NCBI GenBank assembly: GCA_902618175.1
Contig: CACMZN010000018.1
Location: 1 to 40,094, forward strand
Source of the DNA: an uncultured Verrucomicrobiota bacterium
Lineage (GTDB): Bacteria; Verrucomicrobiota; Verrucomicrobiia; Opitutales; Seribacteraceae
Reading direction: 5' to 3'
DNA: 40,094 nt
In this document: positions 1-36,316 of the stretch, one piece after another
How the letters are laid out: each line of letters starts with the position of its first letter
How positions within the stretch are numbered: position 1 is the stretch's first letter
Position numbers and translations under genes: made by a program
The notes under the pieces: model-generated
Database searches by the model: none
The model's input: only the letters and a program-made list of their open reading frames with translations
Told to the model about the DNA's origin: nothing

Positions 1-1305
1 TTTGATCCCGAAATTCGAAGGGATGCATTGCTCGCTGATTTGTCTGATAGGGAGTTTCCCGCGCCAGATCCTTTGCTTCTGAATGCTCACGTTCATACTT
101 TTTTTTCCTTCAATTATCTCGGTTATTCACCAACCCGTCTTGCCTTGGAGGCCAAAATCCGTGGGCTTGAAATGGCTGGAATCGTTGATTTCGACGTATT
201 GGACGGGCTGGATGAGTTTTGGCAGACCAGCAGACTCCTCGATCTAAAGGCATGCATCGGTTTGGAATCCCGTGTATTTGTACCGGAATTCTCCGGACGA
301 GTGATTAACTCACCCGGCGAACCAGGAATCAGTTACCATATGGGAACGGGTTTCACGAGCACGGACATACCTAAGGATGCTCGAGATTTCCTGGATTCCT
401 TGGTCCTCACCTCGGAGAAGAGAAACCGGGCGATGATAGATCGCGTCAATTCCTATCTCGAACCCTTGGTTCTGAATTACGACCAAGACGTCTTGCCACT
501 CACTCCAAAGGGTAATGCCACGGAGCGACATTTGTGCATGGCTTATGCCCGCAAAGCCGCATCCAAATTTTTGGAAGAGAGCGAATTGAGATCGTTTTGG
601 TCGCATAAGCTGGGAGTGGATTCCATCAATCTCAAAGATCTTCCGGATGGACGAGGGATGACTGATTTGATACGCGCCAAAACCATGAAAAAGGGTGGGG
701 TTGGCTATGTTCAGCCCGATTCGGGTTCGTTTCCGAAAATGTCGGAGATGAATGAATTCATTTTGAAGTGCGGAGCCTTGCCCACTTTCACTTGGTTGGA
801 CGGGACATCCGAAGGAGAACGTTCGATTGAGGAACTCATTGAAATTGGTCGTTCCACCGGGGTGGTCGTTTTCAACGTCATTCCCGATCGCAACTATACG
901 CCCGGATGCAAGGACGAAAAGCTCAAGAATCTGCAACAGGTCGTAGGTTTGACGAAAGAATTGGATTTGCCTTTGCTTGGCGGAACCGAGATGAACAGTC
1001 CCGGGCAAAAATTCGTAGATGATTTTCAATCCGAAGAATTGGAGCCGTTGCATGCTCTTTTTCTTCGAGGCTCCCACATTCTACATGCTCATTCTACCTT
1101 GCAGAAATTAATCGGTATGGGATATTTGAGCGATTGGGCGGAAGAACAATTCGCCTCAGTCTCTGATAAAAACCTGTTTTTCGCTGAATTTGGCAAATTC
1201 TTTTCACCCAGGGCAGATGCCCGACTTCAAGAGGTTCTAAGCTTGAAACAAAGTGCCGCAGAAGTGCTGGATCACGCTCGAAATGCAATGATCCACTCTT
1301 CCTGA
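1..1305 (+). CDS. PHP-domain phosphoesterase, 5'-truncated by window edge
   Basis: A metal-dependent PHP-family hydrolase, probably acting on a phosphorylated small molecule. The metal-binding H-x-H motif (HVHT) lies at 88-99, followed by a GLES segment (about 259-270) and later GTEMNSPG and HAHS segments that supply typical PHP ligands. The frame is open to base 1 with no in-frame ATG and only a TTG at 28, and the upstream residues (FDPEIRR) look like genuine protein, so the true start lies outside the window. The stop TGA is 5 bases ahead of the next gene, a mannitol-dehydrogenase-like enzyme, so the two are probably co-transcribed and the hydrolase is likely a sugar-phosphate phosphatase of the same pathway. 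That role is inferred. The family also includes histidinol phosphatases and polymerase-associated domains, which this protein does not resemble in context. Confidence 0.8.
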   Translation, partial: FDPEIRRDALLADLSDREFPAPDPLLLNAHVHTFFSFNYLGYSPTRLALEAKIRGLEMAGIVDFDVLDGLDEFWQTSRLLDLKACIGLESRVFVPEFSGRVINSPGEPGISYHMGTGFTSTDIPKDARDFLDSLVLTSEKRNRAMIDRVNSYLEPLVLNYDQDVLPLTPKGNATERHLCMAYARKAASKFLEESELRSFWSHKLGVDSINLKDLPDGRGMTDLIRAKTMKKGGVGYVQPDSGSFPKMSEMNEFILKCGALPTFTWLDGTSEGERSIEELIEIGRSTGVVVFNVIPDRNYTPGCKDEKLKNLQQVVGLTKELDLPLLGGTEMNSPGQKFVDDFQSEELEPLHALFLRGSHILHAHSTLQKLIGMGYLSDWAEEQFASVSDKNLFFAEFGKFFSPRADARLQEVLSLKQSAAEVLDHARNAMIHSS

Positions 1306-1310
1306 AGGAA

Positions 1311-2513
1311 GTGGCAAGTACATTTGTTGGTTTTGGTTTCGGAGCGATCCAAGGGGGTTTGTTTCTGCCAGAGGTATACCTATCCGGAAACTTCACGCGG
1401 ATGGTGGTTTCGGAGATTGATCCTGAAATGGTTTCTCTGGTTCGTGCGGGAAAGGGAACTTATTTTTGCAACGTTGCCCATAAGAACGGTTTGGAGACCA
1501 GAGAGATTACTGATCTTGAGATATACAATCCCCTCGTTCCCGAAGACCGAGAGAATTTGCTCCTTGCCATAGCGGAAGCGTCCGAACTTTGCACTGCACT
1601 GCCGAGTTATAACCTTTACGATGCCGAACCAGCATCGGTGGCGGCCCTCCTTGCAGAGGGATTAGCTCAAAAAGTCGCGGATGAGAGTTTGCCAAGCGCG
1701 GTTGTCTATGCAGCGGAAAATGATGCCCATGCAGCTGCTCGGTTGAAAGGAGCTTGCCAGAATCATTACCCTTCCGGTTTTGGAGACCGGGTATTTTTTT
1801 CCGACACTGTGATAGCCAAGATGTGTTCCGTCGTTTCCCAAAAGAGTCGGATCCTGACTGAAAATTTAATACCTGTGGTGAAATCAGCAAGCAAAGCCTT
1901 CTTGGTGGAAGCATTTGATCAAATACTCATTGATGATGGTCAACCAACTGACTTTGTTCGAGGATTGAAGAAATTCATTACCAAAACAGATTTGAGTCCT
2001 TTTGCCCTGACTAAGTTTTACGGGCACAATGCCATTCATGCGACTTTGGGTTTCCTAGCCAAACAAAAGGGATTGAAGTTCATGCACGAAATTTCACAAG
2101 ACCAGGTTTTGATGAATGAAGCAGGTGAGGCATTCGTATCGGAGGCAGGCGTTGGGTTAAGGTATGAATTTTCCGGAGTGAATGACGTCCTCTTTACGGA
2201 ACAGGGCTTCCGAAACCATGCAGAAGATGCGTTGGGCAGAATGATCAATCCATTTTTACGAGATCCAGTGGATCGAGTTGTTCGTGATCCGGTCAGAAAA
2301 CTTGGTTGGAACGACCGATTGCTTGGATCAATGAAACTTGCCCGCAAAGCAGGAGTTTGTCCATCAACCATGATTCGAGCGGTCCAAGCGGCCTTACCCT
2401 ATGCCTGTCGGGAAAGGCGGTGGAAATCCGAAAAGAGAGCGCTTCAGGAAATGTGGTCTGGAGTTCTTTCAAGCGAGGAGAAATCATTCTTCATGAAGCT
2501 TATATTGTCTTGA
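1311..2513 (+). CDS. Mannitol-1-phosphate 5-dehydrogenase-like polyol dehydrogenase
   Basis: A 400-residue protein of the mannitol dehydrogenase family, expected to oxidise a polyol or polyol phosphate with NAD. An N-terminal Rossmann-like segment (GFGFGAIQGG, residues 7-16) replaces the usual GAGNIGRG. The family's catalytic K-x4-N-x2-H pattern is present as KFYGHNAIH (residues 235-243). The following RDPVRKLGWNDR stretch matches the C-terminal domain of MtlD-like proteins. The start is GTG, the only plausible in-frame start, with AAGGAA immediately upstream. It follows the PHP gene by 5 bases and precedes the DeoR regulator. The N-terminal nucleotide loop is atypical, so substrate and cofactor are uncertain. 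Mannitol-1-phosphate itself should not be assumed. Confidence 0.75.
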   Translation: MASTFVGFGFGAIQGGLFLPEVYLSGNFTRMVVSEIDPEMVSLVRAGKGTYFCNVAHKNGLETREITDLEIYNPLVPEDRENLLLAIAEASELCTALPSYNLYDAEPASVAALLAEGLAQKVADESLPSAVVYAAENDAHAAARLKGACQNHYPSGFGDRVFFSDTVIAKMCSVVSQKSRILTENLIPVVKSASKAFLVEAFDQILIDDGQPTDFVRGLKKFITKTDLSPFALTKFYGHNAIHATLGFLAKQKGLKFMHEISQDQVLMNEAGEAFVSEAGVGLRYEFSGVNDVLFTEQGFRNHAEDALGRMINPFLRDPVDRVVRDPVRKLGWNDRLLGSMKLARKAGVCPSTMIRAVQAALPYACRERRWKSEKRALQEMWSGVLSSEEKSFFMKLILS

Positions 2514-2551
2514 ATAGGCAGATTTCCGATTTGAAGATTGCTTTTCATTCA

Positions 2552-2583
2552 AAAACGATCAAAATCAATCTAAAACGATCAAA
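2552..2583 (+). promoter_or_regulatory. Tandem direct repeat, candidate DeoR-family operator
   Basis: Two identical 12-mers AAAACGATCAAA lie at 2552-2563 and 2572-2583, with a 20-base start-to-start distance (about two helical turns). The second copy ends on the first base of the regulator's ATG. There is no Shine-Dalgarno sequence between them. Direct-repeat operators near their own gene are known for DeoR-family repressors. The assignment to this regulator is an inference from position. Confidence 0.5.
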
Positions 2584-3362
2584 TGATTAGCGAAGCGTAT
2601 CCAGTCCTTGCTCCTCAAAGACGGGAGCAGATTAGAAAGGTTGTCAAACAGGGTGGCATTGCTCGTGTTGAAGATCTCAGAAAGAATTTGAAGGTTTCCG
2701 TCGCTACGATCCGCAGGGATTTGGAAATTCTCGAGGAGGAAGGAAAGGTTCGAAGAGTCCACGGTGGGGCTGTTTCAATGGAGAGTCGATTGGAGGAATC
2801 AGTTTTTGACGACAAAACGAGTCTGGCAAGCAAGGAAAAGATACGAATAGCGGAAGAGGCCTATTCGATGATTGGAACAGAAGAATCCATTTTTCTGGAT
2901 GGTGGAAGCACAACTTTGTTTCTTGCTCGAATGCTTACCGGTCGAAATGATTTGACGGTGGTCACCAACTCCTTGAGAGCAGCCTCTGAATTGGCGGAAA
3001 AGGGACCTCGGGTGATACTGACGGGAGGTGAACTCAGAAGATTGAGTCAGACCATGGTGGGGCCCCTATCCTCAGCCGTGCTGAACCAAGTGCGAGTGGA
3101 CAAGGCTTTTATGGGAACAATGGGTTTTTGTCTGATGAATGGGTTAACCACCACTGATCCGAATGAGGCTTTCGTCAAATCACTGGTTGCCGAGCATGCA
3201 AGGCAAGTAATTTTGCTGGCTGATTCCAGCAAGGCGGAAAAAGTCTCTTTTGCCCGTTTTTCGGAATGGAAACAGATTGATCTTTTGATTTCCGATGATG
3301 GACTTACGGAAGTCCTTGCCAAGTCTTTGCGCAAGCTTGGTCTCGTGGTCCGGTTATGTTGA
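2583..3362 (+). CDS. DeoR-family transcriptional regulator
   Basis: A 259-residue regulator with an N-terminal DeoR helix-turn-helix (the RREQI...GGIARVEDL...VSVATIRRDL pattern, about residues 13-50, followed by VRRVHGGA) and a C-terminal sugar-phosphate-sensing DeoRC domain (DGGSTT near residue 100, TGG and DSSK segments). Such proteins usually repress carbohydrate or polyol catabolism genes and are released by a phosphorylated sugar. It sits between the MtlD-like gene and the E2-E3-E1 genes, so it is the obvious local regulator. The tandem repeat overlapping its start suggests autoregulation. No Shine-Dalgarno sequence is visible, and the ATG at 2583 is the only good in-frame start before the HTH. 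Confidence 0.9.
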   Translation: MISEAYPVLAPQRREQIRKVVKQGGIARVEDLRKNLKVSVATIRRDLEILEEEGKVRRVHGGAVSMESRLEESVFDDKTSLASKEKIRIAEEAYSMIGTEESIFLDGGSTTLFLARMLTGRNDLTVVTNSLRAASELAEKGPRVILTGGELRRLSQTMVGPLSSAVLNQVRVDKAFMGTMGFCLMNGLTTTDPNEAFVKSLVAEHARQVILLADSSKAEKVSFARFSEWKQIDLLISDDGLTEVLAKSLRKLGLVVRLC

Positions 3363-3386
3363 ATTTATTCGTCAAAGGATAAACTA

Positions 3387-4736
3387 ATGGCCGTACCGAT
3401 CATCATGCCAAGACAGGGACAGTCGGTGGAAAGTTGCATTCTCACCGAGTGGAAGGTTTCCATTGGAGATGAGGTCTCCGAAGGAGAAGTTCTGGCAGTG
3501 ATAGAAACCGACAAGGCGAGCTTTGATCTCGAATCCACTTCGTCGGGCCAAGTGCTTGCTCTTTTTTGGGAAGAGGAGGATGACGTTCCGGTATTGGCAA
3601 ACGTTGCGGTGATTGGAACAGAAGGCGAGAATTGGGAAGAATTTCGTCCGCCTAAGTCCGGTTCCGGAGAAACTCCAATTGCTGGCGAAGACAAGGATTC
3701 TTCCCCACAGGAGGTTTCTTTGGTTACAGAGGAAAGTCGTACTCCTGAACCGGGGGAGTTATCCAACGGCATTGGAATCGCTGCTGGAATCAGTCCGAGA
3801 GCCCGTAAGCTCGCTGATCGAATGGCGATTTCCATTGAGGATCTTCAAGGAACAGGACCTGGAGGAAGAATAATTGAACGGGACATCCGATCCTTTGCCA
3901 AGAAACGTCCCCGATTATCCCCCGTTGCAGCAGTCATGGCACGGGAAAATGCCATGAATCCACCTTTCAGAGGGAGTGGACTGGCGGGTATGGCCCTTGG
4001 GTCGGACATGCGAAGGCCCGGAGCTATCGAGGGTGCGGAAGTGGAACCGGTGAGAGGGATTCGCAAAGTCATCGCTGAGCGAATGATGAAGTCCTTGAGC
4101 TCAACCGCCCAATTGACCCTCCATTCATTCTTCGAACTTACTGCCGTACAGGTCCTTAGAAAGCAAAGATTGGAAGAAGGAAAACCTAAGGTTTCGATAA
4201 ATGACTTGATTGCCCATGGTTTGTTGGAAGCGATCCAGGCTCATCCGGAAATGAATGCTCATTTTTTGGGAGACAAAATGGCGATCTTCGAAAAAGTACA
4301 CCTTGGGGTAGCGGTCGACACACCCCGAGGTCTCATGGTGCCGGTGGTTCGCAATGCATCCGATTTGTCTTTGGAAGACCTTTCCGGCACCATTGGAAAA
4401 GCTGCCCTCCAGTGTCGCGAGGGAAGCCTTTCACCCGATGACCTCACAGGTGGATCCTTCACTCTTACAAATCTTGGAATGCTTGGAGTGGAAACTTTCA
4501 CTCCCGTGTTGAATGCTCCCGAGGTTGCAATTCTAGGAGTTGGTGGCATCGTGCTCAGACCGAAGAGGTTGGACTCTGGAGAAATTGTATTTGCCGATTT
4601 TCTGCCGCTCAGTCTGACGATTGATCATCAGGCAGTGGATGGATCGCCTGCGGCGCGATTTCTGCAAACCTTGGTCGACCATATGGAAAAGAATCCTGGA
4701 GGAAAACTTTCACAACCAAAGGAACCACAACCATGA
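3387..4736 (+). CDS. 2-oxoacid dehydrogenase complex E2 (dihydrolipoamide acyltransferase)
   Basis: A 449-residue E2 core enzyme that transfers the acyl group from lipoamide to CoA. It has one lipoyl domain (about residues 1-78, lipoyl lysine K43 in ETDKAS), a Glu/Ser/Pro-rich linker, a peripheral-subunit-binding domain (about 128-170, SPRARKLAD...GTGPGGRI), a Met/Gly-rich linker, and the catalytic domain (about 220-440) ending in DHQAVDG with H414 and D418. The start is preceded by AAAGGA with good spacing. The stop overlaps the E3 start (ATGA), so the two are translationally coupled. The paralogue serving central metabolism is not in the window. Proximity to polyol dehydrogenases suggests a pathway-specific (acetoin-type) complex rather than the housekeeping pyruvate dehydrogenase. 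Confidence 0.92.
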   Translation: MAVPIIMPRQGQSVESCILTEWKVSIGDEVSEGEVLAVIETDKASFDLESTSSGQVLALFWEEEDDVPVLANVAVIGTEGENWEEFRPPKSGSGETPIAGEDKDSSPQEVSLVTEESRTPEPGELSNGIGIAAGISPRARKLADRMAISIEDLQGTGPGGRIIERDIRSFAKKRPRLSPVAAVMARENAMNPPFRGSGLAGMALGSDMRRPGAIEGAEVEPVRGIRKVIAERMMKSLSSTAQLTLHSFFELTAVQVLRKQRLEEGKPKVSINDLIAHGLLEAIQAHPEMNAHFLGDKMAIFEKVHLGVAVDTPRGLMVPVVRNASDLSLEDLSGTIGKAALQCREGSLSPDDLTGGSFTLTNLGMLGVETFTPVLNAPEVAILGVGGIVLRPKRLDSGEIVFADFLPLSLTIDHQAVDGSPAARFLQTLVDHMEKNPGGKLSQPKEPQP

Positions 4737-6076
4737 AATATGATTTTGCCGTTATAGGAGGAGGTCCAGCTGGCTATGTTGCCGCTAAAAAAGCAGCATC
4801 TGCGGGATTGAGCACCTTGTTGGTGGAAAAGGAAAAGCTTGGAGGCGTATGCTTGAATGAAGGATGCGTACCATCGAAAACCTTGCTGCAGGCTGCCAAG
4901 ACTTATCACCATGCCAAGCACGGGTCTGTCTTTGGCGTCGAAGTGGAAGGATTGAATTTCAACTTCGTCCAAGCCCACGCTCACAAAAACCAGGTTATGG
5001 ATAGAATGCGTGGTGGGATAGCTGGTCTGATGAAGAAGTATAAAGTTGAAGTAGTTAAGGGAGAAGCCGTCCTGCAAAGTGGTTTGAGAATAAGAGTGAA
5101 TGGAGAAACCCACCAAGCGGACGACGTTTTGCTCTGCACTGGTTCCTCGCCCTTGATTCCTCCTATTTCCGGAATTGATTCTAAAGGGGTGGTGGATTCT
5201 TCAGGAATTCTACAACTTGAGCAACTGCCTGAGCATTTAATCGTGATTGGAGGGGGTGTCATTGGTTGTGAATTTGCATGCATGTATGCATCCGTCGGGA
5301 TTCCGGTTACAGTCTTGGAAACCTTGCCAGAGATTTGTCCAAGTCTGGATAAGGACATTGCGGCGGTTCTGCGAGAGGAGTTGATCAAGAAGGGCGTTGA
5401 CTTCAAGTTGAATGCAAGAGTGGAGGCCATTGAGCAAAACTATGTTCGTTTCACAAACGGAGTTGATTCCGAAGAGGTTCGGGGAGACCTCATTTTGGTG
5501 GCAACGGGAAGGAAGCCGAACGTGAATAATCTGGGTCTTGAGGAACTGGGCTTGGATTTTGATCCAAGGGGAGTGCGGACGGATGAGCGGGGGGCAACGA
5601 ACATACCGGGTCTATGGGCAGCTGGAGACGTGACGGGTCAAGCTTGGCTCGCTCATGCGGCCAGTCGGATGGCGGAAGTGGTGGTTCACAACATCCTTGG
5701 TCGTGATGATATGATTAGACACGACAAAATGCCGGCAGTGGTGTACACCAGTCCTGAAGTCGCCGTCGTAGGTTTAACGAAGGAAGATGCGGAAGCACGG
5801 GGACTCCATGTGAAGACTGGCCGAATTCCCATGGCGATCAACGCTCGCTACTTAGCAGAGAATCCAAAAGAGGCTGGATTTTGCAAAGTCGTAATGGAAG
5901 CAGAAACCAATCGCTTGCTCGGTGTGCACATGGTGGGTGGCGCTTGTTCGGAAATGATTTTTGGAGCTGCTGCCTTGCTTGAAACCGAATTGCGGGAACA
6001 GGAGATAGAAGAAATTGTCTTTCCTCATCCAACCACTTCGGAGGTCATGAAGGACGTTTTCATGGCAGTGCGTTGA
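4733..6076 (+). CDS. lpdA: Dihydrolipoyl dehydrogenase (E3)
   Basis: A 447-residue FAD-dependent E3 that reoxidises dihydrolipoamide using NAD. The N-terminal FAD motif GGGPAGY (residues 9-15) is followed by the redox-active pair C40/C45 in [13 protein letters not shown] second dinucleotide fold occurs near residues 172-185 (IGGGVIGCE). A FAD-binding AAGDV segment follows, and the C-terminal HPTTSE carries the catalytic His-Glu pair. Length is slightly short for the family (about 460-475) but all functional segments are present. It overlaps the E2 stop by 4 bases and lies 32 bases before E1, so it belongs to this complex. Confidence 0.95.
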
Positions 6077-6108
6077 TTTTTTTCTATATTTCAGACCATC
6101 ATAAAACC

Positions 6109-8562
6109 ATGCCGAAGTCACAAATCGTAGAACCTGCCCGAGAACGCAAAACTGGTATTCTTTCCTTTGGTGAGATTCCCCTCAATCAATACAAACAAGA
6201 CATTGTTCGGGAAAAGCAAGCGCTTGGAAGTGAAGCTCTCCTTGGAATCTATGAAGATATGCTTCTGATAAGAGAATTTGAGAATATGTTGCAAAGCATC
6301 AAGACTCAGGGATCTTTTCAAGGAATTGAATACGATCACAAGGGTCCGGCTCATCTTTCAATCGGACAAGAAGCATCCGCAGTGGGGCAAGCTTTTCTGC
6401 TTGGGGTGGATGACCACATTTTTGGTTCTCATCGATCTCATGGTGAAATCCTTGCCAAAGGAATGTCTGCCGTAAGAAAACTGGATGATGAATCCCTTAT
6501 GGAGATCATGACCTCATTTCTCGGTGGGGACTGTTTTCGCGCTGTTGAGAAGGAGGGATCCGGTACGGTGAGGAATCTTGCTCGTGATTTTCTTCTTTAT
6601 GGCTCTCTTGCGGAAATCTTTGGGCGTGAAAATGGTTTCAATCGAGGATTGGGAGGATCAATGCATGCGTTTTTTCCACCCTTTGGAATTTTGCCCAACA
6701 ATGCAATAGTCGGAGGTTCGGCCGACATTGCCATGGGAGCCGCTCTTTTCAAGAAAATCAATCGCAAGCCGGGAATTGTGATTTCAAACGTTGGTGATGC
6801 CTCGATGGGATGCGGACCAACTTGGGAGGCAATGAATTTCGCTTCCATGCGTCAATTCCATGAACTGTGGGATGAGAGCAGAAGAGGAGGCCTGCCCATC
6901 CTTTTTAATTTCATGAACAACTTTTATGGCATGGGAGGTCAAACTGCAGGAGAGACCATGGCCTTCGATTTTCTTGCTCGGGTGGGTGCAGGAGTGAATC
7001 CCCAAATGATGCATGCCGAACGCATTGACGGCTACAACCCTCTCGCGGTGGTCGATGCGATCAAGCGTAAGAAAACTTTGCTTGAAAGGGGAGAAGGACC
7101 TGTATTACTCGAAACCATAACCTATCGATTCTCCGGACATTCTCCTTCCGATGCATCTTCTTATCGACTTAAGGAAGAAATTGAAGCCTGGCAGGCCATC
7201 GATCCTCTTCATGCATATGCCGAAGAATTGATTGACGCTGGTCTGTTGACTGAAGATAGAATTGGAGAGGCTCAAGCAGATGTGACCGAAGCCATGACCA
7301 AGGCATGTCGGCTTGCTTCGGACTTAAGAGTTTCTCCCCGTCTGCAATCTGAAAAGATCGGCGATCTGATGTTTTCCGGAAGAAGAAAAGAAAGTTATGA
7401 CTCCACGCACGAATCCGAGTTGCTTTTGTCAGCTGAAGAAAATCCTCGTGTGCTGGCATTAGCCAAAAAATCAAGAGCTGGCGTCGTCGATGGAAAACCA
7501 GTATCTAAAAACAAGGTTTTTCAATATCGAGATGCGATCTTCGAAGCTGTGTTTCATCGTTTTCAGAAGGATTCTACCCTTGTTGCATATGGTGAGGAGA
7601 ATCGAGACTGGGGCGGCGCATTTGCCTGCTATCGGGGACTGACAGAATCTCTTCCTTACCACCGCTTGTTCAATTCCCCGATTTCCGAAGCGGCAATTGT
7701 TGGCAGCGCAGTGGGTTATGCGTTGGAAGGTGGTCGAGCATTGGTGGAATTGATGTATTGCGATTTCATGGGTCGAGCAGGTGACGAAATCTTCAACCAG
7801 TTGGCGAAATGGCAGAGCATGTCTGCATGCATTTTGGAAATGCCGGTGGTTCTCAGGGTTTCGGTCGGTTCAAAGTACGGAGCTCAACATTCTCAAGACT
7901 GGAGTGCCATCGTGAGCCATATTCCCGGTTTGCAAGTAGTTTTTCCGTCTACCCCGTACGATGCGAAGGGAATGTTGAACACCGCTCTGGCGGGTACTGA
8001 TCCAGTGATCTTTTTCGAAAGCCAAAGACTTTATGACCTTGGAGAATTATTCGAAAAAGAAGTACCGTCCAAATACTATGAAATTCCCTTTGGTCCACCA
8101 GCTCAAAGAAGGGTGGGGAAGGACATCACTTTGATTACCGTGGGAGCAACCTTGTATCGTGCATTGGAAGCTGCGGATATTTTGGAGCAAAACTACGAAA
8201 TGACCTGTGATTTGTTTGATTGTCGTTCTCTCAATCCACTGGATTATGATCTTTTGATTGAATCGGTTCGAAAAACCGGCAAGGTACTTCTATCTTCAGA
8301 CGCTTGTGAACGAGGTTCGGTCATGCAGGACATTGCTTCCAATATCAGTCAGTTGGCATTTGATCACTTGGACGCACCTCCGGTGGTGGTCGGATCAAGA
8401 AATTGGATCACTCCATGTGCCGAGGTGGAATCCGATTTCTTCCCTCAACCCAGTTGGATATTAGATGCCATTCATGACAGAATCATCCCCTTGGACGGTC
8501 ATCGAATGACAACAAATCCAACCACTGGTGAACTTCTGCGTCGTCAAAGAGCAGGCATTTAA
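6109..8562 (+). CDS. Fused E1 alpha-beta of a 2-oxoacid/acetoin-type dehydrogenase complex
   Basis: A single 817-residue thiamine-diphosphate enzyme combining both E1 chains. The alpha part (about residues 40-420) has GGSMHAF, the ThDP motif beginning GDAS (229) and ending NN (270-271), and the regulatory-loop-like GHSPSD (about 343-348). The beta part (about 468-817) opens with YRDAIFEA and carries GEENRDWGG around 495-503 and the transketolase C-terminal region. Two stretches are longer than usual: about 45 residues between HGEILAKG and GRENGF, and about 13 residues inside the ThDP motif. I chose the ATG at 6109 over the upstream TTG at 6073 because the latter overlaps E3 and adds an unlikely leader. 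No Shine-Dalgarno sequence is seen. GGSMH and GHSxSD fit the pyruvate/acetoin/branched-chain group. The exact substrate is unknown. Confidence 0.9.
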
Positions 8563-8589
8563 AAATGAAAAATTCATAGGGATGATCTC

Positions 8590-10410
8590 ATGATCAAACA
8601 AGTGGGAAATTCTTCTTTGGATCGTGTTGATGTCCTGAAGGAACAAGCTCGTCTATCTCATAAGGGAATTTATCTGACCGGAGCTAACCAGATTGAATTG
8701 TCGGACGATAAGTTGCCGGAAGAAAGTTTCAACGGTGAGCATTTTGTTCTGGCTAGTTTCGGAAATTGTCGATGCGCATCTGACGCAAAGGCGATCAGGC
8801 AATTTGATTCTCATGCTCGAGTACCTTCTGGAGTGGAGAAAATTGCTCTGGGTCATGAAACTTTGCAAATGATTTTGGAGACTCCTGCTGAATCGAATTT
8901 CAAAAAAGGTGACTTGGTTGTGATCACGCCAGGACATTCAAGCGAACCAATCGATCCTTTGACTTTCAAACCATCTGGAAAAGGCGTTTTGGCCGCGCTT
9001 GGTTATTCTTACAGATACATGGGAGGTCTGCGAAAATTCAATGCAGTTTCCGGCAAAGCTCCGGAATTCGTAAAATTGCAAGGTTTTGGAAACTTGTTCA
9101 ACAAGGTAGCACCCAATTCGGATACGAGTCTAGTTTCATTAGCTCATGCCGAACCCTTCGCTTGTAATTTTGGAACCAATAAGAACATTTTTACCATTTC
9201 CCGGGATGGATCCTTTTGCTATGGAGTACCGCCGCGAGCTAGAATTGCTTACCTATCTGGAACCGCTCGTATGGCGATGATTAATCTCACCATCGTCGCG
9301 AACGTGCCTGACTCTGATCTGCCGGAAGTTGTTTATATAACCGGTTCCCAAAAGAAACTGGACGATCTTGATAATTTTGCTCTGATTGAAGATTTAAGAA
9401 AACGGGGCACCAAAATTATACTCATTGATCGAAGTGATCCTGCGATTTTCTCCAAACTTACGCAGTTTGGAAAACCAAAAGTCGTGTGGACGAACTATGC
9501 TTCCGACAATAGTTATGAACTTGCAGTATCCATTCTTGCTGAGGGTGGAAATTTAAATAATTATGCAGGTGCTGCGGATCCTGATTTGTTGATAAAAATG
9601 CCGATTGGTCCTGCAAGGTCTTTTCAAAGTTACGAACAAGAGGCTCATTTTCAAATCAACCAAATGCACCATAACATATCACCCAATAATCCGTTGCGGT
9701 TTCGTGGTCTTTCTGGAAAGCCCAAAATTGCATTGCTCGGATTTGAAGACGATTGCGTACGTGAAAAGGCCTATTTGGATTTGTTGCCTGAAGCTTCTTC
9801 CGTTTTAACTTCTTCCACAAAGCCTTTGTCTTCCCGATTCATTCCTTTGATGGGGAACGAATTGATAACTGACTTATTCATTGCCGGCTCAGGTGAAAAA
9901 GCCGAGAGGATCTATGCTGATCATGAACCTCGCTTGGCTCGTTCGGCTGCGGTCAATTTCATTGATGGAAATTTGATTGTTCCCATCCGTTCAAAACAAG
10001 TTCATTACGTATCACGGCATCAAATTTGTGGCTCAAATGTTCCATGGCATATGACTAATACTTCAGAACCGCATTCTGATGATATGGTTGTTCAGGCATC
10101 CAATCCGATAAGTTTTGATTGGATGGTCAAGGGAATTTGCGGTTTGGGGTCAGTGCCGAATATGATGGAATGGGTCGAAAGGGAGCAACCTTTTGGTTCG
10201 TTCTTTGCCTTCACTGAACTTGTTGATTTGCCCTACCTCGCCACAAACTCGAAATCCTTCCGGGCAAAGGCTTCTTCTTCGGTCGGACGAGTTCGTCAAT
10301 CCTTATTCGATGCGGCCCGAATACTTGAGTCAAATGATGAGACTTGGTCTAGAAAAGTAGAGGAAGCGCTTTATATGGGATATGGTGTTCCGTATCCCTT
10401 GAATCTTTGA
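8590..10410 (+). CDS. Large MDR (zinc alcohol dehydrogenase-like) protein, sorbose-1-phosphate-reductase-like
   Basis: A 606-residue protein whose first ~340 residues follow the order of medium-chain dehydrogenases of the L-sorbose-1-phosphate reductase type: a Cys region (C60, C62), GHE at 89-90, a GYSYRYMGG segment near 138-146, AEP near 187-189, then a degenerate nucleotide loop (SGTARM near 223) and a beta strand ending ITGS. The usual length is 350-420, so about 200 residues are extra. They contain no motif I recognise except a late HSDDM, which may realign with the family's C-terminal part. The start ATG has AGGG eight bases upstream. It sits between E1 and the SorD-like dehydrogenase. 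The MDR assignment is moderately sure. Activity and role of the extra region are unknown. Confidence 0.6.
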   Translation: MIKQVGNSSLDRVDVLKEQARLSHKGIYLTGANQIELSDDKLPEESFNGEHFVLASFGNCRCASDAKAIRQFDSHARVPSGVEKIALGHETLQMILETPAESNFKKGDLVVITPGHSSEPIDPLTFKPSGKGVLAALGYSYRYMGGLRKFNAVSGKAPEFVKLQGFGNLFNKVAPNSDTSLVSLAHAEPFACNFGTNKNIFTISRDGSFCYGVPPRARIAYLSGTARMAMINLTIVANVPDSDLPEVVYITGSQKKLDDLDNFALIEDLRKRGTKIILIDRSDPAIFSKLTQFGKPKVVWTNYASDNSYELAVSILAEGGNLNNYAGAADPDLLIKMPIGPARSFQSYEQEAHFQINQMHHNISPNNPLRFRGLSGKPKIALLGFEDDCVREKAYLDLLPEASSVLTSSTKPLSSRFIPLMGNELITDLFIAGSGEKAERIYADHEPRLARSAAVNFIDGNLIVPIRSKQVHYVSRHQICGSNVPWHMTNTSEPHSDDMVVQASNPISFDWMVKGICGLGSVPNMMEWVEREQPFGSFFAFTELVDLPYLATNSKSFRAKASSSVGRVRQSLFDAARILESNDETWSRKVEEALYMGYGVPYPLNL

Positions 10411-10441
10411 TAAGCTTAAATCTAAAGGACAAACTAAACTC

Positions 10442-11263
10442 ATGAGTTGGATTAATTTAAACGGAAAGGTAGTCATTGTGACCGGAGGTGCCGGAGGGAT
10501 TGGTTTGTCGGTGGTAAAGGGATTCGTAGAGGTGGGTGCAAGAGTTATGATTGCAGACTTTTCTGAGCAAGAGGGCCTTGAGAAGGCTGAAGAAGCAACT
10601 CGAATCGGTCCAGGAGAAGCGGCATTTTCCAGATGCGACGTTTCTTCAAAGGCAGAGGTGGATGAACTGGTTGTCGCTACGATGAAAAAGTGGGGATCGA
10701 TAGATGTTTTGGTAAACAATGCCGGTATCAACGTTCCCAGGTTATTGGTTGATCCTTACGGAAAGGAGGAATTGACGGAGGAAATTTGGGATAAGGTGTT
10801 TGAGGTGAATGTGAAGGGCCAATTTCTTTGTGCTCAAGCCGCAGTCCGCCAGATGCTGAATAATGAAAAAGGAGGAGTACTGATCAACATGTCTTCTGAA
10901 TCAGGTCTGGAAGGGAGTGAAGGCCAGAGCGCGTACGCCGCAACCAAGGCAGCAAGTCAAAATATGACACGCTCTTGGGCAAAGGAACTGGGTAGCCAGG
11001 GAATACGAGTGGTGGGGGTAGCTCCAGGAATCATGGAAACCACAGGAATGAGGAGCGATGAATATGAATCATCTTTGGCTTACACGAGAGGAATCTCGAT
11101 TGAGGATCTTCGTTCCAAATATGCAAAGACTACCTCTATCCCCCTGGGAAGAAGCGGAAAGCTATCTGAGGTTTCTGACTTGGTCGTATTTCTTGCGTCT
11201 GAACGGTCTTCCTATTTGCATGGAACCACGGTAAATTTGTCCGGCGGCAAGTCTAGGGGCTGA
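10442..11263 (+). CDS. Short-chain dehydrogenase, sorbitol-6-phosphate 2-dehydrogenase (SorD)-like
   Basis: A 273-residue classical SDR. It has the cofactor loop TGGAGGIG (residues 14-21), an acidic residue D39 after the second strand that favours NAD over NADP, NNAG at 92-95, and a catalytic triad S152, Y165, K169. Several stretches (INVPRLLVD, SSESGLEGSEGQSAYAATK, RVVGVAPGI, IPLGRSG, a GGKSRG tail) closely resemble sorbitol-6-phosphate 2-dehydrogenase SorD of the Klebsiella L-sorbose operon as I remember it. The reaction is therefore likely oxidation of a hexitol (phosphate) to a ketose (phosphate). It is the last plus-strand gene of the cluster, 31 bases after the MDR gene, with AAAGGA about 12 bases upstream of ATG. 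Confidence 0.85.
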   Translation: MSWINLNGKVVIVTGGAGGIGLSVVKGFVEVGARVMIADFSEQEGLEKAEEATRIGPGEAAFSRCDVSSKAEVDELVVATMKKWGSIDVLVNNAGINVPRLLVDPYGKEELTEEIWDKVFEVNVKGQFLCAQAAVRQMLNNEKGGVLINMSSESGLEGSEGQSAYAATKAASQNMTRSWAKELGSQGIRVVGVAPGIMETTGMRSDEYESSLAYTRGISIEDLRSKYAKTTSIPLGRSGKLSEVSDLVVFLASERSSYLHGTTVNLSGGKSRG

Positions 11264-11277
11264 ACCGCTTGCCAGGT

Positions 11278-11730
11278 TCACCATGTCGTCACCCCTTTCG
11301 CGATGATGAGATTGGCGTAAATTCGAACGTCACCTGTCATTACAACGGCAAAAGCCTTTTTAGTTCTGTCGTAGAAGTCGTATTTGTCCACTTGGGCAAT
11401 GGGAGAGGTTTTAGGATAATGTTTCTTGATAATTGCAGAATATCCGTCTTCAACCTTTTGGTAATCTGCGGCAATTGTTGGATTTTCCAAGTCTTCGGGC
11501 AAGGGTCCCATCATCATTACCGGTTGTTTCATGACATGATCCAATACGAAGAGAGGCAATATGGCGTCGAGTAACGAACTGATGTCGAGTCCATCGGCCC
11601 GTATGATGCGCGGATTGCAGCTTTCGCCCGGAAAGTGGGCATCCCCGAACACGATCTCATCATGATGTCCCATCCGGTACAGGGTTTCCAAAAGCCTTGG
11701 GCTAAGAAGGGGAGAAATTCCACGAAGCAT
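11278..11730 (-). CDS. fucU: FucU/RbsD-family sugar mutarotase
   Basis: A 150-residue protein matching L-fucose mutarotase FucU across its length: MLRGISPLLSP start, MGHHDEI with H22, DAHFPGES, RADGL, then FYDRTKKAFAVV with Y120 and a C-terminal AKGV. FucU interconverts anomers of L-fucose and related sugars before kinase or isomerase action. The gene converges on the SorD-like gene with 14 bases between stops, so it is not in the same transcript as the catabolic cluster. It could instead be read from its own promoter or by read-through from carA and the deacetylase gene. The family is confident. The physiological sugar is not. Confidence 0.9.
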   Translation of the reverse strand: MLRGISPLLSPRLLETLYRMGHHDEIVFGDAHFPGESCNPRIIRADGLDISSLLDAILPLFVLDHVMKQPVMMMGPLPEDLENPTIAADYQKVEDGYSAIIKKHYPKTSPIAQVDKYDFYDRTKKAFAVVMTGDVRIYANLIIAKGVTTW

Positions 11731-35677: not shown

Positions 35678-36316
35678 ATGATCCCCATTGAATGCACCGC
35701 GGTATTGATCGGTTATTTTTTGGGATCGATCCCGTTTGGTGTTCTTGTCTCAAAAAGAGCTGGTGTGGACATCTATTCCATTGGAAGTGGAAATCCCGGT
35801 GCCACCAATGTTTTGAGGGAGATTGGAAAACCTGCAGGCTACTTGGTATTTACTTTGGATTTTCTAAAAGGATTGATTTCAACCACATGGTTTCTTTTCC
35901 CTTTTTTTTCCTTTTCTGGAAATCTCTCTTTGGGATTGTTGGGCTTGCCGGCGGCTGTTTTAGGTCATACCTATCCACTTTTTGCGAATTTTCGCGGAGG
36001 TAAGGGAGTTGCCACAGCAATGGGTGGTTTGCTTGGGGTTATGCCAGAATGTCTGTTGATTGGCCTGGTCTGTTGGGTAGTGATTTTTTATTCTACAAAA
36101 TACGTAGCCATTGCCTCCATCGGCTTTGGTCTTAGCTTGCCGGTTTGCGCACTGTTCGGGTACTGGTCAGATTTTGGAGATACGACGAAGGGAGCCAAAC
36201 TGCTCTTGGCAATTTTGGTCATGAGTTGGATTGTCTGGAGGCACCGTTCGAATCTCGCTCGACTGAGAGACGGAACGGAAAATCGTTTCCATCAAGAAAA
36301 GAACTCATCAAATTAA
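35678..36316 (+). CDS. plsY: Acyl-phosphate:glycerol-3-phosphate acyltransferase PlsY
   Basis: A 212-residue inner-membrane acyltransferase that makes lysophosphatidic acid from acyl phosphate. The three conserved motifs are present: GSIPFGVLVSK, SGNPGATNVLR and the GGKGVATAMG loop, interleaved with hydrophobic helices. The ATG at 35678 (or GTG at 35675) gives the normal N-terminus. The frame stays open upstream into serA, but an earlier start would only add unrelated residues. It lies 14 bases before hom. Confidence 0.95.
   Translation: MIPIECTAVLIGYFLGSIPFGVLVSKRAGVDIYSIGSGNPGATNVLREIGKPAGYLVFTLDFLKGLISTTWFLFPFFSFSGNLSLGLLGLPAAVLGHTYPLFANFRGGKGVATAMGGLLGVMPECLLIGLVCWVVIFYSTKYVAIASIGFGLSLPVCALFGYWSDFGDTTKGAKLLLAILVMSWIVWRHRSNLARLRDGTENRFHQEKNSSN

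Follow-up and report, generated by a model that had tools for sequence, protein, structure and literature searches.

A nine-gene run with polyol-type dehydrogenases and a second 2-oxoacid dehydrogenase-type complex in a Verrucomicrobiota bacterium: a possible module for 6-deoxyhexose catabolism

SorE and SorD interconvert L-sorbose-1-phosphate, glucitol-6-phosphate and fructose-6-phosphate, and in effect move the ketone along the sugar chain. The polysaccharides of algae and plants have L-fucose and L-rhamnose among their major sugars. A published view is that Planctomycetota and Verrucomicrobiota process fucose and rhamnose in microcompartments confining lactaldehyde (PMC8857213). Here we analysed 40,094 nucleotides from an uncultured Verrucomicrobiota bacterium (contig CACMZN010000018.1; this whole stretch is called the window), which starts with a run of nine genes for a PHP-fold protein, an MtlD-like dehydrogenase, a DeoR-family regulator, the E2, E3 and E1 components of a 2-oxoacid dehydrogenase-type complex, a long medium-chain dehydrogenase/reductase (MDR), a short-chain dehydrogenase (SDR) and a FucU-type mutarotase. 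We consider it possible, at a probability of about one in three, that this run represents, for Verrucomicrobiota, a module that breaks down a 6-deoxyhexose or a closely similar sugar, is common to Planctomycetota and partly to Lentisphaeria, and combines a ketone shift with a cleavage to acyl-CoA.

The chemistry of such a cleavage has precedents. A paper of 1986 reportedly described 1-deoxyketoses from pyruvate dehydrogenase (PDH) and acetoin dehydrogenase. Purified PDH makes 1-deoxyxylulose from pyruvate and glyceraldehyde, which is the reverse bond formation, and E. coli aceE mutants rescue the loss of 1-deoxyxylulose-5-phosphate synthase (PMC3424233). A second precedent, with sugar cleavage by a thiamine diphosphate (ThDP) enzyme, is the transketolase that cleaves 6-deoxy-6-sulfofructose (PMC11659671). 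The nine genes of the window are as follows.

1..1305, + strand: PHP-fold protein; 5' end truncated by the contig boundary; HxH conserved, C-terminal D-x-H changed to E-x-N
1311..2513, + strand: MtlD-like dehydrogenase (mannitol-1-phosphate 5-dehydrogenase family), by Pfam
2583..3362, + strand: DeoR-family regulator, by Pfam and NCBIfam
3387..4736, + strand: E2 acyltransferase with lipoyl, E3-binding and catalytic domains (Pfam)
4733..6076, + strand: E3 dihydrolipoyl dehydrogenase (TIGR01350, 493 bits, cut-off 409)
6109..8562, + strand: E1, alpha and beta parts fused in a single chain; open frame from 6073; below the PDH cut-offs
8590..10410, + strand: long MDR dehydrogenase of 606 residues, a distant relative of shorter MDR proteins
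10442..11263, + strand: SorD/SrlD-like SDR, by NCBIfam
11278..11730, - strand: FucU-type mutarotase, convergent, by NCBIfam

The first eight genes are co-directional, with gaps of 5, 69, 24, -4, 32, 27 and 31 bases when E1 is counted from 6109. The E1 start is probably the ATG at 6109, because nine aligned relatives begin with the methionine of MPKS or the equivalent one. All nine genes, with the same order and range, had been listed in a sequence-only reading of this DNA. Two of its labels have less support than it gave them: the PHP label, whose Pfam match is below cut-off, and that of the 606-residue protein, which has no Pfam or NCBIfam family.

By domain content, the window E1-E2-E3 is a member of the 2-oxoacid dehydrogenase complex superfamily. 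The E1_dh, Transket_pyr and Transketolase_C domains of E1, the lipoyl, E3-binding and 2-oxoacid_dh domains of E2 and the pyridine nucleotide disulphide oxidoreductase domain of E3 were all over the Pfam cut-offs, and the E1 segments QHSQ and GHSPSD were kept in all ten aligned sequences. Both E1 parts failed the PDH models of NCBIfam (alpha, 196.3 versus 393.85 bits; beta, 225.3 versus 321), and so did E2 with two models (265 versus 722 and 254 versus 445). One of two cases that the sequence-only reading had named against itself is that the complex is the organism's only PDH. This was ruled out by contig C21 of the same genome, which carries a separate canonical set of E1alpha, E1beta and E2 passing the PDH models (TIGR03182, 423 versus 394; PRK09212, 424 versus 321; TIGR01349, 447 versus 445). 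A further E1_dh match lies in a 938-residue frame on contig C16, which from the frame size is probably the E1 of 2-oxoglutarate dehydrogenase. Within the window's family, a stand-alone E1alpha scoring 286-304 bits was detected in 27 of 41 genomes.

The gene run is well conserved in the window's family. The long MDR was found in 33 of the 273 genomes of the order, all of them in family f1, to which the window belongs (33 of 36 listed). With a threshold of E <= 1e-100, E1 was detected in 30 of the 273, all among the 33 with the long MDR. In 37 loci from named genomes, all eight genes stood in order on a single strand in 19, E1, MDR and SDR stood together in 27, and FucU was convergent and less than 1 kb from the SDR in 23. 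Among the 18 loci without all eight genes, many are truncated where their contigs end; L025 shows a rearrangement, and the distant loci are L029, L030 and L032. The conserved neighbourhood, whose absence was the other case that the earlier reading had named against itself, is thus present, with partial conservation across phyla. The downstream histone-deacetylase-like, carA-like and pckG-like genes are syntenic in the family too. Because these unrelated neighbours are also syntenic, family synteny alone was not accepted as proof of function, and recurrence across phyla was used as the main argument.

The left flank was read in relatives, since the window begins inside the PHP gene. Left flanks were fetched from seven genomes of the family, three of them were read by eye, and all loci with room were then searched. 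Of the fetched loci, 22 extend 900 bases or more to the left of PHP, and in 21 of these the immediate left neighbour of PHP is a PfkB-family gene, several of the 21 being second fetches of one contig; the only locus without it is L029 from Planctomycetota. The absence of a kinase in the sequence-only reading was therefore an effect of the contig edge. The PfkB copies are 71-100% identical to a query derived from L098. The copy in L096 passes Pfam PfkB (88.8 versus 25.8), and those of L096 and L098 are under every NCBIfam kinase cut-off. By eye, a cupin-like protein of 441 residues lies left of PfkB in L096 (15854-17179) and L097 (15519-16835); the L096 protein matched nothing in Pfam, nor anything in NCBIfam at 1e-10. 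Polyphosphate-kinase-like and porin-like proteins were seen by eye farther left in relatives.

Relatives of the long MDR with 49-54% identity were found in two Planctomycetota (L029 in G599, and L217 in G661, a genome reached by way of its PHP), in Lentisphaeria (L030 in G600) and in two f54 Verrucomicrobiota (G325 and G563); the L032 genome (G601) and G325 have identical match positions and were counted once. E1 is also present in G599, G600, G325 and G661 (63-74% identity), either unlinked or on a different contig, and in the first three it lies within a separate DeoR-E2-E3-E1 unit. G599 has adjacent genes for PHP, a class II aldolase-like protein, MDR and SDR, and close to them a DeoR gene and an FGGY kinase gene. 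Among 392 sampled Planctomycetota, E1 was over threshold in 59 (48 at >=56% identity, and 11 at 38-41%, which were set apart as weak in the co-occurrence count) and PHP was also present in 59. Both occurred in 44 genomes, where 8.9 were expected. The p-value of 2e-32 for this takes no account of common descent and should not be read as a probability of function. PHP and E1 are less than 10 kb apart in nine of the 44, and 33 kb apart in G851.

Three Planctomycetota loci bring most of the genes together in different orders. L175 (G695) is a single run of PHP-SDR-DeoR-MDR-E2-E3-E1. L172 (G743) holds FucI-like and rhamnulokinase-like genes, MDR, SDR, PHP, E1 and DeoR, with E2-E3 divergent. L222 (G888) has SDR-MDR-PHP-kinase-E2-E1 as a single run with E3 just past it. 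The longest-frame caller used for these neighbourhoods gives spurious antisense frames, and only frames supported by homology are named here. The window SDR passes the NCBIfam model 'sorbitol-6-phosphate dehydrogenase subunit' NF004817 (360.7 versus 304) and is below a second sorbitol-6-phosphate dehydrogenase model, NF009050 (159.5 versus 307). The SDR of L175 passes the latter (363.9 versus 307); those of L172 and L222 are under its cut-off (228 and 230). Our results showed that the module is conserved across phyla and that its linkage is looser outside the window's family.

The neighbours of the module in Planctomycetota give clues to the sugar. In L172, the FucI-like isomerase scored 131.9 (NCBIfam cut-off 775) and the rhamnulokinase-like kinase 467.8 (cut-off 528). 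G888 carries FucU and a FucI-like gene about 19 kb from PHP; its FucU (144.5 versus 141) is 44% identical to the window FucU, which itself passes NCBIfam 'L-fucose mutarotase' NF011949 (143.6 versus 141). In L225, L228 and L229, isomerase and kinase genes cluster with those for Aldolase_II, DeoR, PHP, MDR and SDR, and the L228 isomerase is over the RhaA cut-off (673 versus 572). RhaA lies about 7 kb or less from PHP in G758, G810 and G862 and about 4 kb from it in G728. PL11-type proteins (rhamnogalacturonan lyase) stand beside E1 in three loci, one of them confirmed by Pfam; G758, G810 and G862 have two PL11-type proteins beside E1, with RhaA and a roughly 370-residue Aldolase_II protein on the same contig. 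These RhaA, rhamnulokinase-like, FucI-like, FucU and lyase neighbours point to the 6-deoxyhexoses L-rhamnose and L-fucose. In G695, RhaA and an Aldolase_II gene are on contig C43, apart from the PHP-to-E1 run (L175, 6902-16590), and this run may serve another sugar.

From the observed genes, their conservation and co-occurrence and the sugar-specific neighbours, we infer every reaction, the step order and the sugar of the window organism. Our tentative proposal is a new aldolase-free route for 6-deoxyhexoses, in which dehydrogenases would move the ketone and a ThDP-lipoamide complex would split a 1-deoxyketose-6-phosphate to acetyl-CoA and a tetrose-phosphate. A kinase (PfkB in the window's family, RhaB-like or FGGY elsewhere) would make the 6-deoxyketose-1-phosphate, whose C2 ketone would be reduced by the SorE-like MDR. 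The SorD-like SDR, in the window perhaps together with the MtlD-like enzyme, would then oxidise C5, and the product would be a 1-deoxyketose-6-phosphate, which is an acyloin with a methyl ketone. Together with E2 and E3, the fused ThDP E1 would cleave this compound at C2-C3, as acetoin dehydrogenase does acetoin, and cleavage with lipoamide oxidation would yield acetyl-CoA, NADH and tetrose-4-phosphate. Provided that the C2 centre is set in the same way, L-fuculose- and L-rhamnulose-1-phosphate would give the same tetrose-4-phosphate, since both have the same C3 configuration.

Several findings weigh against this route. The PHP-like protein has no place in it. Of the 44 Planctomycetota genomes that carry PHP and E1, 33 (G599 and 32 others) have them on separate contigs; 12 of the 48 genomes with a close E1 have no PHP, and 15 of the 59 with PHP lack this E1. 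G563 has the long MDR with an E1 at 40% identity only. The E1 of L222 is 31% identical to the window E1 and passes the PDH-beta cut-off (357.9 versus 321), so it may be the ordinary PDH of G888; the MDR of the same locus shows just 28% identity across 151 residues. In the window's family, G074 (92% complete) and G177 (91%) have no E1_dh gene over cut-off other than the fused E1, AceE-type E1 not having been searched, and pyruvate therefore also fits as the substrate there. An Aldolase_II gene lies inside the rhamnose-type clusters of G758, G810 and G862, so classical cleavage may be available in these genomes. RhaA was found in one of 25 genomes of the window's family and FucI in five of 15, and neither was kept as its general entry enzyme. 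The 6-deoxyhexose link is present in Planctomycetota and weaker in the window's own family; the deoxy-sugar idea of the sequence-only reading gains support to that extent.

The main rival is a classical aldolase route with a dedicated PDH: a class II aldolase would give dihydroxyacetone phosphate and L-lactaldehyde, the SDR would make lactate from the latter, as in RhaEW, and pyruvate formed from it would go through the complex, co-regulated with these genes, to acetyl-CoA. We regard this as unlikely. In its favour, RhaEW chemistry is biochemically proven (PMC3870299). In several Planctomycetota clusters the SDR matches models of RhaEW-type aldolase-dehydrogenases with scores under the cut-off, and some cluster SDRs there are still fused to an Aldolase_II domain. 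The Aldolase_II genes in the three rhamnose-type clusters, the PDH-like E1 of G888 and the lack of another E1_dh gene over cut-off in G074 and G177 also favour it. The run in the window contains no aldolase gene. The window genome has one Aldolase_II gene with a RhaEW-type aldolase domain, which is on another contig amid sulfatase-like genes. An Aldolase_II gene was found in 12 of the 15 genomes of the window's family searched, and one adjoins E1 in six of the 15 (G045, G192, G097, G086, G177 and G159); where the contig continues, as it does in four of the six, this gene is placed between E1 and MDR. The Aldolase_II of L010 (9242-9991) is closest to the NCBIfam model for 3-oxo-tetronate 4-phosphate decarboxylase, below cut-off (99.5 versus 250).

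On the other side, the aldolase route gives MDR and PHP nothing to do, a canonical PDH is already encoded elsewhere in the window genome, and the SDRs of the window and G695 pass as sorbitol-6-phosphate dehydrogenases. The only Aldolase_II of G743 is an L-ribulose-5-phosphate 4-epimerase of the AraD type by the NCBIfam subfamily model (351.6 versus 257), and no FucA- or RhaD-type class II aldolase was found in this genome, whose completeness is not given. No Aldolase_II match was obtained in G149, G205 and G074, which are drafts of 91-93% completeness and may miss genes. The earlier idea that the pathway bypasses an aldolase finds support in only part of the genomes: G743 fits it, while Aldolase_II is present in the clusters of G758, G810 and G862 and beside E1 in the six family genomes. 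By eye, several sulfatase-like genes surround the aldolase-domain gene of the window genome (L285, 290-15837), which is consistent with the use of sulfated polysaccharides. Also by eye, fused aldolase-SDR proteins adjoin an MtnA-like protein at L291 8304-11438 and L292 5534-8688, which suggests 5-deoxyribose or methylthioribose salvage in G222 and G168.

A doubtful reading of the same rank is that the window's module takes a different sugar or polyol phosphate (a non-deoxy ketose or a hexitol, for instance) through the same ketone shift, in which case the acyl-CoA may differ and be, for example, glycolyl-CoA. It would account for the scarcity of RhaA and FucI in the window's family, for the kinase beside PHP, which is PfkB and not RhaB-like, and for the extra MtlD-like dehydrogenase in the window run. 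It sits less well with FucU as a conserved convergent neighbour (23 of 37 loci), found also beside the FucI-like gene in G888, and with the RhaEW-type aldolase domain amid sulfatase-like genes in the window genome. It is improbable that a second PDH is merely co-located with sugar dehydrogenases without a common substrate, the neighbourhood being explained by synteny: the syntenic downstream genes, the DeoR-E2-E3-E1 unit apart from MDR in BB1, Lentisphaeria and f54 and the different contigs of PHP and E1 in 33 of 44 Planctomycetota genomes speak for it, whereas PHP, MDR, SDR and E1-E3 are reassembled in different orders in Planctomycetota and co-occur at the genome level even where unlinked.

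The module contains two proteins with unusual features. PHP enzymes bind their metals through HxH, H, E, H and D-x-H. The PHP-like protein of the window has a Pfam PHP match below cut-off (21.1 versus 26.4), and its predicted structure has the PHP fold in a Foldseek search against the Protein Data Bank (PDB); re-alignment gave the same top families, reusing Foldseek's own list and so not being an independent search. Xylose isomerase matches far down that list (E 0.1 and above) were given no weight, and matches to designed repeat proteins (phmmer and profile) looked like chance or composition and were dropped. HxH, E89, E175-R176-H177 and R297-N298 were kept across 15 aligned members; the C-terminal motif is E-x-N in 14 of the 15 proteins and D-x-N in one, with ligands assigned by eye. 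As judged from this alignment, the full ligand set appears not to be present, the C-terminal D-x-H being altered. An ordinary phosphatase fits the fold and not the altered ligand set, and the protein may lack phosphatase function.

The 606-residue MDR had no Pfam or NCBIfam family match. Its putative MDR identity comes from alignment to shorter relatives with ADH_N and from the invariant C62, H89, E90 and E188 in 11 aligned sequences; frames of 419-604 residues in other families of the phylum are 24-35% identical to it. Its predicted structure is poor (mean pLDDT 65.4, pTM 0.43). By eye, it has G-T-A-R-M-A-M where the shorter relatives show a glycine-rich nucleotide motif, which counts among the points against the proposed route, and its cofactor binding may differ from theirs. 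The MtlD-like protein matches Pfam Mannitol_dh_C (48 bits, cut-off 30.7); its best NCBIfam match is 85 bits with a cut-off of 356. Elsewhere in the window, an open frame of 103 residues (35692-36003) may, by eye, be a frame-shifted plsY-like gene.

If the proposed route is true, a lactaldehyde-free path straight to acetyl-CoA would change the genome-based reading of this carbon flow, and the E1-E2-E3 architecture would be used for sugar cleavage. Even if the mechanism is wrong, the run is a well-bounded module with a PHP protein and a long MDR that have no function in the libraries used. In the open-access literature, we recognised no paper as describing this gene set.

Among known systems, the SorE/SorD L-sorbose pathway of enteric bacteria shares an MDR and an SDR acting on ketose and hexitol phosphates, and the window SDR passes as a sorbitol-6-phosphate dehydrogenase. 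The window differs in its unassigned 606-residue MDR and in the link to a 2-oxoacid dehydrogenase-type complex, and no gene of the phosphotransferase system was noticed among the genes read, no search for it having been made. The acetoin dehydrogenase complex likewise has a ThDP E1, E2 and E3 in a catabolic operon, and acyloin cleavage is what we propose here by analogy; in the window, E1 alpha and beta are fused and no acetoin-specific E1 model was among the NCBIfam matches. PDH shares the full E1, E2 and E3 domain set and the QHSQ and GHSPSD segments, whereas the window E1 is far under the PDH cut-offs that the C21 set passes.

The RhaEW L-rhamnose pathway has in common DeoR-type regulation and, in some clusters here, RhaA, a RhaB-like kinase and an aldolase-SDR; the PHP protein, the long MDR and a private E1-E3 are not mentioned in the part seen (PMC3870299). 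The sulfoquinovose transketolase pathway also employs a transketolase-type ThDP enzyme that cleaves a 6-deoxy sugar derivative, a transketolase there and a putative lipoamide-coupled complex here (PMC11659671). The Planctomycetal-Verrucomicrobial microcompartment for fucose and rhamnose belongs to the same phyla and sugars, whereas no shell-protein gene was noticed in the loci read, no search for shell genes having been made (PMC8857213).

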